The translations under genes and the position numbers were made by a program. This document shows, one piece after another, positions 6,728 to 25,441 of a stretch of 33,951 bases of DNA. Source of the stretch: Candidatus Nomurabacteria bacterium (lineage in GTDB: Bacteria; Patescibacteriota; Minisyncoccia; Phycocordibacterales; UBA9973); NCBI GenBank assembly GCA_903862255.1, contig CAIOXK010000002.1, forward strand, positions 1 through 33,951. The letters are read 5' to 3'. Each line of letters starts with the position of its first letter. Within the stretch, counting starts at the first letter, position 1. The notes below the pieces were generated by a model, which worked only from the letters and a program-made list of their open reading frames with translations, was not told the DNA's origin and did no database searches.

Positions 6728-8581
6728 TTAACGGATAGTCATACCAGAATGTTCAGTAATAGCTGCTACTACTATTTGAAATTGTTTTTCAACTTCTTCA
6801 TCGGTCAGTGTTTTTTCACTTGATTGAAATACAAATCGATATGCCACACTAGTCTTCCCTTCTTTGCTAAAGGTATCAAACAATACAGGGGGGCGTGCAC
6901 AATACTTTTCAGCAAATTCATACACTATTTTTTCTAGTACGTTTTTCTCAGTGTCGCCGTTTACCCATACCGCAATATCTCTAACAATAAATGGATACAG
7001 TGACCAGGCCTTAAACGTATTGGTCCCCACATGTGCGCTGCTTAGCAGCGCACATGTGGTAACGTCAATTTCAGCCAACTCATCTTTGTGTGCCTCGTAG
7101 TATTCATCAACACTCGATTCATGTATTCCTGTTTTATCAGCAAGGGCAATATTTATCTGCTCCTGTGTATCGACTGGTCCTGACATAAAGACTGTACCAA
7201 TTTCAAACTCTTTTACCTCACTTACACCGAGCAGTGCAGCATTCAGACGATTCATTTCATAACTTTCTTTTAGGCCATCAGCAAGATTTGTGCGGAGTGC
7301 ACTTTTATCCTTCGGTCCGTGAGCAATCATAATATCCCCTTTTTTTCGGAAGCTGTATGTCATTACTTCTGAATATCCTTGTTCAATTAAATAGAATTTA
7401 ATGGTGCGAATTTTTTCATATTGCTCATTCAAAGAAACTGTTGGGGTGAATGGGATTGGTTGCGGATCAATAGTATCGTAGCCGATTACACGACCGAATT
7501 CTTCAGCCATATCATGAGCCCCAGTAATGTCGTGACGCCATAGTGGTACTGCTAGCGTATACATAGTACCTTCAACAGTACGTAAAGAAGCAACACTTTC
7601 ATAGGTATACCCATAGCGATCGAGCACTTTTACAATTTCAGTGTCTGTAATCGAAACCCCAAGGATTCGTTGAATATCTTGTGTGGTAAATGATATTGCT
7701 CGCTCGACTTGAGGCTGAGGATAATACTCGGCCATAGCAGTAACCGTTCCTCCGCCAAGCGTTTGAATAAGGGTTACTAATTGCGCCGCTGCATTTTCAA
7801 CTGTAAAAGGCGCGAGGTTATTTTCAAAACGTTTTGAAGCATCTGTTGCTAGCCCTAATGGACGAGAAGCTTTGCGCACACTGACTGGATCGAAATTAGC
7901 AATTTCCAATATAACTGACGTTGTTTCAGCTGTTACCTCAGCAGCCTTGCCTCCTTTCACTCCAGCAATTGCCAAAAGTTTTTCATTATCAGCAATAACA
8001 ATCATTCCTGCCTTTAATACCTTTTCTTGCTCTGAGGTGTTTGAAGGATCTTCTTTTCCTAGGACAGTAATAGTCTCTCCATCTCTTGCCTCGCGTACAA
8101 CAATCGGCCCAGATACTTTTGCAGCATCAAAAACATGTGTTGGCTGGCCAGTATCAAGCAAAATATAGTTTGTGGCATCAACAATATTATTAATAGAGCG
8201 CTGCCCTACTAGTTCTAACTTCTTAACTAGCCATGCTGGAGAAGGCCCAACCTTCAGGCCATCTATTTGTACAGCCTTATATCGAAGACAGCCTTTTGAT
8301 TCTACTTGCAGAGCAATAGGAATACTAACTGCTTCAAATTGGTACGCTTCTGTTTTGAAATTAAGACCAAGTAGTCCCGCAATCTCTCTCGCCATACCGT
8401 AATGACTCAGACAGTCACCAGCACGATCGGGCAAAATTTTGATATCAAAAATAGTATCAGTAGCAAGTACCTCTATATCTTCAACCTCAAAAGCGTGGAA
8501 AATAATTGTTTCCTTGAGAATTTCTGCAGAAGGCAGTGGATCTTCAATATGAGACTGTAACCAGTTGTATGAATATTTCAT
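6728..8581 (-). CDS. pheT: Phenylalanine--tRNA ligase beta subunit, short form
   Basis: 617 aa; 'MKYSYNWLQSHI', 'IKILPDRAGDCLSHYGMAREIAGLLGL', B5-like 'ISFTTQDIQRILGVSITDTEIVKVLDRYGY', FDX-ACB C-terminus 'WSLYPFIVRDIAVWV'. N-terminal B2/EMAP-type tRNA-binding region not seen. Confidence 0.93.
   Translation of the reverse strand: MKYSYNWLQSHIEDPLPSAEILKETIIFHAFEVEDIEVLATDTIFDIKILPDRAGDCLSHYGMAREIAGLLGLNFKTEAYQFEAVSIPIALQVESKGCLRYKAVQIDGLKVGPSPAWLVKKLELVGQRSINNIVDATNYILLDTGQPTHVFDAAKVSGPIVVREARDGETITVLGKEDPSNTSEQEKVLKAGMIVIADNEKLLAIAGVKGGKAAEVTAETTSVILEIANFDPVSVRKASRPLGLATDASKRFENNLAPFTVENAAAQLVTLIQTLGGGTVTAMAEYYPQPQVERAISFTTQDIQRILGVSITDTEIVKVLDRYGYTYESVASLRTVEGTMYTLAVPLWRHDITGAHDMAEEFGRVIGYDTIDPQPIPFTPTVSLNEQYEKIRTIKFYLIEQGYSEVMTYSFRKKGDIMIAHGPKDKSALRTNLADGLKESYEMNRLNAALLGVSEVKEFEIGTVFMSGPVDTQEQINIALADKTGIHESSVDEYYEAHKDELAEIDVTTCALLSSAHVGTNTFKAWSLYPFIVRDIAVWVNGDTEKNVLEKIVYEFAEKYCARPPVLFDTFSKEGKTSVAYRFVFQSSEKTLTDEEVEKQFQIVVAAITEHSGMTIR
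7027..7059. repeat. Palindromic element inside pheT
   Basis: CCACATGTGCGCTGCT-T-AGCAGCGCACATGTGG, 16 bp arms. Confidence 0.9.
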
Positions 8582-24589: not shown

Positions 24590-25270
24590 TTAATGAGTTG
24601 TAACGGTCATTGCAATTTGCAGTGTCGGATCTGTAGAGTAATCGTACCCAGTAGTACTAGTTAACCCTTCCCCGCCTGAAATGATTAGGAATTTAGTATG
24701 TGACAATGCCACTACATATACTGACAATCCAAAGCCATGGTGCGTACCACCGTTAAAAATTGGCAAACCAGATGTTGTAAATGCAAAAGGTGTTGTTGCT
24801 ACGCTATACAAAGAACCATCTTGTTCATTTTGCACTTGGGTAACCCATCCAATCTTACCGTATGACAACACGTTCTTGCCCCACTTCCCTGTAGAAGTAT
24901 CAGCGCTGTCAGTTGCTTTTACAATAGTAATAGGTTGAATGTTTGAATTTGGAATTGAGAGTGATACCTTACCAGTTTTGTCGATTGACTGAATACGTGT
25001 TTGAGGGTATGTCGCAGTGTAACCAAACTTAGCATCTGTATACACTTTTGTAATTGGACTTGGTGTTGCGTGCGGAGGCAACACTGGCTCAGATGGCTTA
25101 GTAACTGCTGGAATAACTGGTGTTGTTGAAACGGTTGGTATTTCAGAATTAATAACTGGAGCAGTGCGATTATGCCGAGAATAAAAACGCGCACCTATTA
25201 TAACTGCGATTATTAGAATTACTACTAATGCCAGAATGATTACAGTAGAACCTTTTTGTAAATTTTTCAT
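24590..25270 (-). CDS. Hypothetical membrane-anchored extracytoplasmic protein
   Basis: MKNLQKGSTVIILALVVILIIAVIIGARF then Pro-rich linker and globular domain. Confidence 0.7.
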   Translation of the reverse strand: MKNLQKGSTVIILALVVILIIAVIIGARFYSRHNRTAPVINSEIPTVSTTPVIPAVTKPSEPVLPPHATPSPITKVYTDAKFGYTATYPQTRIQSIDKTGKVSLSIPNSNIQPITIVKATDSADTSTGKWGKNVLSYGKIGWVTQVQNEQDGSLYSVATTPFAFTTSGLPIFNGGTHHGFGLSVYVVALSHTKFLIISGGEGLTSTTGYDYSTDPTLQIAMTVTTH

Positions 25271-25338
25271 ATACAAAGTATACCACCTCTACACATACAT
25301 CACCTTTTTAGATACAGTAACTCTCCACCTTCAGAATA

Positions 25339-25365
25339 TATGTGCGCTGCTAAGCAGCGCACATA
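25339..25365. repeat. Intergenic copy of the same palindromic element
   Basis: TATGTGCGCTGCT-A-AGCAGCGCACATA; shares the 23-nt core TGTGCGCTGCTwAGCAGCGCACA with 7027..7059. Confidence 0.9.
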
Positions 25366-25403: not shown

Positions 25404-25441
25404 AAGAAAATCCCTCTCACTATATTGAGAGGGATTTTCTT
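25404..25441. terminator. Bidirectional terminator-like hairpin
   Basis: AAGAAAATCCCTCTCA-CTATAT-TGAGAGGGATTTTCTT, perfect 16 bp arms, downstream of Nudix gene. Confidence 0.75.

Follow-up and report, generated by a model that had tools for sequence, protein, structure and literature searches.

How does a perfect palindrome come to lie in frame in a tRNA synthetase gene, and why does its core recur between genes of the same contig? The window (the whole stretch of 33,951 nucleotides analysed here) is contig C2 of a 670-kb assembly of 43 unordered contigs with 89% completeness, probably a Patescibacteria (CPR) genome judging by size and gene content. The window contains the following features.

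6728..8581, minus strand: pheT (phenylalanyl-tRNA synthetase beta), carrying the motif in the linker before the FDX-ACB domain
7027-7059, inside the minus-strand gene pheT: palindrome CCACATGTGCGCTGCTTAGCAGCGCACATGTGG, 33 nt, perfect, with 16-bp arms and a 1-nt centre
7032-7054: core of the family motif in the pheT copy; the outer 5 bp per side are a copy-specific palindromic extension
24590-25276, minus strand: ORF of 228 aa, function not assigned, no Pfam match, downstream of the intergenic copy
25339-25365, intergenic: second copy, a 27-nt palindrome with 13-bp arms and its core at 25341-25363

Both palindromes had been reported in an earlier note on this DNA, and both were confirmed, the pheT copy by position, arm pairing and domain match. 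It encodes the peptide TTCALLSSAHV (motif part CALLSSAH) directly ahead of the FDX-ACB domain (residues 527-617). The second copy is located between genes and precedes the ORF at 24590-25276, whose start is 66 nt away; no strong promoter was found nearby, and no terminator is predicted at this copy. The 23-mer, with up to three mismatches, was observed twice in the window and not at all in 100 dinucleotide shuffles. A terminator-like palindrome, AAGAAAATCCCTCTCRCTATATTGAGAGGGATTTTCTT, adjoins two different motif copies (window 25404-25441; L003:1442-1481).

The earlier note counted two copies. These belong to a real multi-copy family whose exact form was confined to this genome, and the genome search that the note had proposed raised the number to 11. 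Pattern searches of the whole genome located TGTGCGCTGCTWAGCAGCGCACA at 11 places, with five exact 21-mer cores, nine sites within two mismatches and 11 within three, against none for the reversed control. Matrix and de novo scans covered a sample of approximately 330–390 kb, about half of the genome. The weight-matrix scan (388 kb) returned 11 sites scoring at least 22.9 (22.9–43), with no other site exceeding 8.9, while shuffled sequence peaked at 12.2; the gap was sharp, the background reaching at most 13.5, and no decayed intermediates were found in this sample. De novo clustering of palindromic 21-mers (330 kb) ranked the motif family first, with 10 members versus at most two in shuffles. 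The members are listed below.

C2: in pheT
C5: in a DUF4015 gene
C12: in a gene for a UvrD-type helicase with a PD-(D/E)XK nuclease domain
C13: in murF
C11: in fmt
C2: intergenic, window 25339-25365
C4: intergenic
C5: intergenic, upstream of ychF
C14: intergenic, downstream of mutM
C17: intergenic tandem pair (two members) between argS and ndk

The motif unit is 21–23 nt. Similarity from copy to copy stops at 21–26 nt, with no extended conserved body, and the flanks differ among copies, without a conserved tetranucleotide at the hairpin foot.

We compared this genome (G000) with 147 other genomes of the family, 11 of them congeners. The motif with at most two mismatches was absent from all 147. 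A relaxed degenerate pattern was enriched only in G000, G039 and G041, and the latter two congeners carry a diverged version with the consensus TGTGCGTTRCYSRGYAACGCACA, among other places at two loci where G000 also has a site. A matrix built from the congener sites alone still scored all 11 sites of G000 at 20.7–30.9. A tree of pheT and the helicase placed G000 as sister to G040 and G039 as sister to G042; both sisters lack the family, so its distribution is patchy. Matches to TGTGC-N13-GCACA in G042 and G036 were A/T-flanked terminators rather than family members, and this pattern was rejected as a conserved frame. Viral contigs (IMG/VR) gave no match to the motif, so a phage origin was rejected. 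A wide distribution was rejected as well, since the search of GTDB r220 gave only two unrelated matches, by our estimate about what chance would produce in 264 Gb.

Five of the 11 copies are within genes, so that the in-frame tolerance first noticed in pheT is repeated; the accompanying claim of insertion was contradicted at four genes. The helicase site has unchanged length, with no indel relative to six orthologues, and the MurF site has none relative to the single orthologue available. Sites in truB of G039 and G041 likewise leave the length of TruB unchanged relative to four orthologues (from G033, G040, G042 and G036, the last being more distant), and the DUF4015 site differs in length from the sister species by at most one residue. 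Ancestral residues were spared: where helicase orthologues read E-C-L-L-x-T-[AS], the protein of G000 reads C-A-L-L-S-T-A (copy peptide CALLSTAQ), and the sole motif mismatch sits in the codon that keeps the ancestral Thr, while one mismatch in the MurF copy (peptide SAVLSST) preserves the ancestral Val. The reading as an inserted element therefore fails at these genes, where the copies arose in place, by substitution. All seven coding sites (five in G000, two in truB) share one reading frame, encoding CALLSSAH-like helices (P = 0.008 for two open frames).

The pheT linker has a history of its own. The comparison of orthologues proposed in the earlier note showed that G040, the closest relative, lacks the palindrome but has a linker of equal length. 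Across the family, however, this linker is hypervariable and frequently contains palindromes, and the pheT copy may or may not be an insertion. Palindromes with arms of at least 9 bp occurred in seven of 49 family genes within 84 nt of linker, versus two in the adjoining coding sequence of 591 nt (linker excess, p = 1e-5). These palindromes are unrelated in sequence, among them a 44-nt palindrome in G004, and the coding DNA of these genomes has an excess of long perfect palindromes. The linkers L046, L047, L051, L263 and others show unrelated palindromes together with repeat-like peptides across the family. G033 and G039 differ in their pheT palindromes at eight positions, which form four complete mirror pairs and for which arm homogenisation by template switching is a sufficient explanation; this process, the correction of quasi-palindromes, has been described for coding DNA (PMC8604942) and for RNA stems (PMC8794818). 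Such switching is also plausible for the arm extension in pheT of G000, and the linker hot spot may explain why this copy was tolerated and extended to 33 nt. A 68-nt palindrome at L005:1524-1591 shares its right arm with a tRNA gene end plus spacer; the left arm is missing from the related locus in G040, an apparent template-switch extension.

Two intergenic sites could be compared between species. Upstream of ychF the flanks are homologous in G000 and G041, and the palindrome is TGTGCGCTGCTAAGCAGCGCAC in the former and TGTGCGTTACCGAATAACGCACA in the latter; the argS-ndk site is common to G000 and G039. At both loci each copy matches the consensus of its own genome. Orthologous sites thus change along with the genome that carries them, the observation that most favours a trans-acting recogniser; homogenisation between copies is an alternative. 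The argS-ndk copies look inserted relative to G033 and G041, the G039 copy forming an additional stretch of 33 nt with the 5-nt repeat ATGTA. Twelve intergenic sites of G000, G039 and G041 are nearer to promoter-like sequence than random intergenic positions (mean match 8.3 versus 7.3 of 12, p = 0.004), and at ndk in G000 and gpmI in G041 the palindrome centre, TTGCTN, forms a −35-like hexamer 17 nt from the −10. This proximity is suggestive, a hint of regulation rather than proof.

A separate palindrome, CGCGTCWGACGCG, often C/G-flanked, is unchanged between congeners and occurs at the following positions.

G000: L143:801, 3207 and 6735; L146:5031; L205:11485
G041: L160:12350; L164:17506; L165:16448; L225:726
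G033: L166:592

It lies inside genes whose N-termini resemble those of tpiA, recG and ligA, and it flanks on either side a long stretch devoid of ORFs that may be an rRNA operon. It looks like a conserved chromosomal binding site; gene-embedded palindromic sites of this kind thus exist in this genome, which we counted in favour of binding sites for the main motif as well.

The earlier note had also suggested a check for REP-type transposases. Y1 genes of this type are indeed present, two in G000 (PF01797 matches at C26 and C24), four in G039 and three in G041, versus zero to one in other congeners, so that the three motif carriers have the most; they match NF047646 (REP_Tyr_transpos, the NCBI REP-associated family) weakly, below its cut-off. 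Palindromes, mostly of 21–25 nt, flank nearly all Y1 genes inspected in G000, G039, G041, G042 and G034. Most are perfect and of odd length, built around a single central base, and their sequence is gene-specific; some have a few scattered copies, mostly intergenic. The flanking occurs at one or both ends (L210, L211, L212-L220), for example TTAGCTAGAACWGTTCTAGCTAA in G034 and CTTGAGGWCSGWCCTCAAG in G041. Orthologous Y1 genes adjacent to the helicase gene have TTAGAGACTWAGTCTCTAA in G039 and TTAGAGGCTSAGCCTCTAA in G041, a symmetric difference. None of the Y1 genes of G000, G039 and G041 is flanked by the motif itself, the nearest motif copy being 4.8 kb away; they have other palindromes or none.

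We prefer, with a probability of roughly 0.48, the reading that the motif copies are binding sites of a putative dimeric DNA-binding protein and co-evolve with it. The pheT palindrome would belong to a group of about 11 recognition sites on the chromosome. Selected substitutions would create and maintain these sites where they stand, in intergenic DNA frequently on a promoter −35 element or immediately outside it, and in genes wherever the peptide [CS]A[LV][LP]SS[AT][HQ] is tolerable. The recognised sequence would have drifted within the genus between G000 and the two congeners, and the pheT copy would additionally have been lengthened, probably by arm homogenisation. A shared dyad motif at unlinked loci that evolves in place, as found here, is a trait of protein-binding sites; the protein, and selection as the force, are what we infer. 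Against this reading, no candidate binding protein was found, the genes near the sites form no coherent regulon, and for operators the intergenic copies resemble one another unusually closely. The patchy pattern also suits a mobile element, and we keep as the main rival an orphan family of REP-like palindromes, dispersed by a REP-associated Y1 transposase (RAYT) that has since disappeared, is encoded outside the assembled contigs or works in trans. The motif shares architecture and copy number with the Y1-flanking palindromes, its tandem pair at ndk resembles paired REPs, and the extra stretch at argS-ndk in G039 fits as well. Yet no Y1 gene carries the motif, although G041 is 97% complete, the gene copies are not insertions, scattered copies of Y1-linked palindromes are mostly intergenic, and neither a conserved tetranucleotide beside the hairpin nor decayed intermediates were seen; on balance we consider this origin doubtful. 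Still less likely is that a Patescibacteria-like genus has a hitherto unreported system of recognition spanning the chromosome, possibly run by a domesticated REP-type Y1 transposase, with co-drifting 23-bp sites in essential genes at an amino-acid cost.

Other readings account for parts of the data. A class of RNA hairpins (terminator, processing or regulatory stem) kept for their structure would agree with the symmetric double changes in ndk copy a of G000 and in the G039 ndk copy, and with the CTTTTT that follows the ychF copies of G000 and G041. It is improbable, as most intergenic copies have no T-run, the gene copies in the helicase gene, murF and the DUF4015 gene break pairs singly, and the sequence is conserved beyond the needs of pairing. 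An insertional palindromic element entering genes in frame, as the earlier note proposed, would suit a multi-copy motif in frame in five genes and a pheT linker that attracts unrelated palindromes; contradicted at four genes and by the short unit, it is very improbable. A purely mutational origin, by template switching with a coincidentally shared core, has the abundance of palindromes in coding DNA, the mirror pairs in pheT and a known process on its side, but template switching cannot yield one shared core at 11 unlinked loci. It does not explain the sites themselves, and as a full account it is scarcely credible.

If the copies are binding sites, a minimal genome pays with amino-acid changes in an otherwise conserved helicase, MurF and TruB for about a dozen copies, and the DNA word changes at orthologous sites between species, which would provide an unusually clean natural record of site–protein co-evolution in an uncultured lineage. 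If they are orphan REPs, this would be a case of REP-like palindromes in genes that did not get there by insertion, something not predicted by current REP models.

Among known systems, REP/RAYT elements share with the motif the short perfect palindromes, the tandem arrangement, the low copy number and, in this genus, palindrome-flanked Y1 genes. REP hairpins have a GTAG/GGAG foot, which the motif lacks, and REPs are extragenic, whereas about half of the motif copies are in genes without insertion; a RAYT-linked REP was rejected because no cognate Y1 gene is flanked by the motif. Intrinsic terminators were rejected because a T-run follows the stem at few copies only, such as ychF, and DNA-uptake sequences were rejected by reasoning (far too few copies; the half-site never stands alone in the window). 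HIP1 of cyanobacteria is also a palindrome in genes and spacers, but it is an 8-mer that is linked to methylases and occurs in very many copies (PMC4390886), as opposed to a 23-mer with 11 copies. Rickettsia palindromic elements, to which the earlier note had likened the motif, lie in frame in unrelated protein genes; they are insertions of approximately 150 bp (PMC10969869), and the likeness was rejected because the motif has no conserved body of ~100–150 bp and added no residues at the helicase, MurF and TruB. LexA-type operator motifs drift between lineages (PMC8565304) with orthologous sites following, as here; LexA was rejected because no SOS genes lie at the sites, many of which are inside genes, and the literature on LexA yielded for Patescibacteria no more than a mention in the text. 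The motif is also unrelated to parS (TGTTTCACGTGAAACA), which was rejected: the motif is species-specific and, at 23 bp, longer, its sites are dispersed, and most congeners have separate canonical parS clusters. Compact clusters of canonical and near-canonical parS, ~2–3 kb, were observed at G033:C12:10300-13090, G041:C9:24179-25953 and G037:C17:19509-21614. What the motif shares with parS/ParB and similar chromosomal sites is its manner of occurrence: a genome has some ten nearly identical palindromes, located both within genes and between them, which evolve where they stand.
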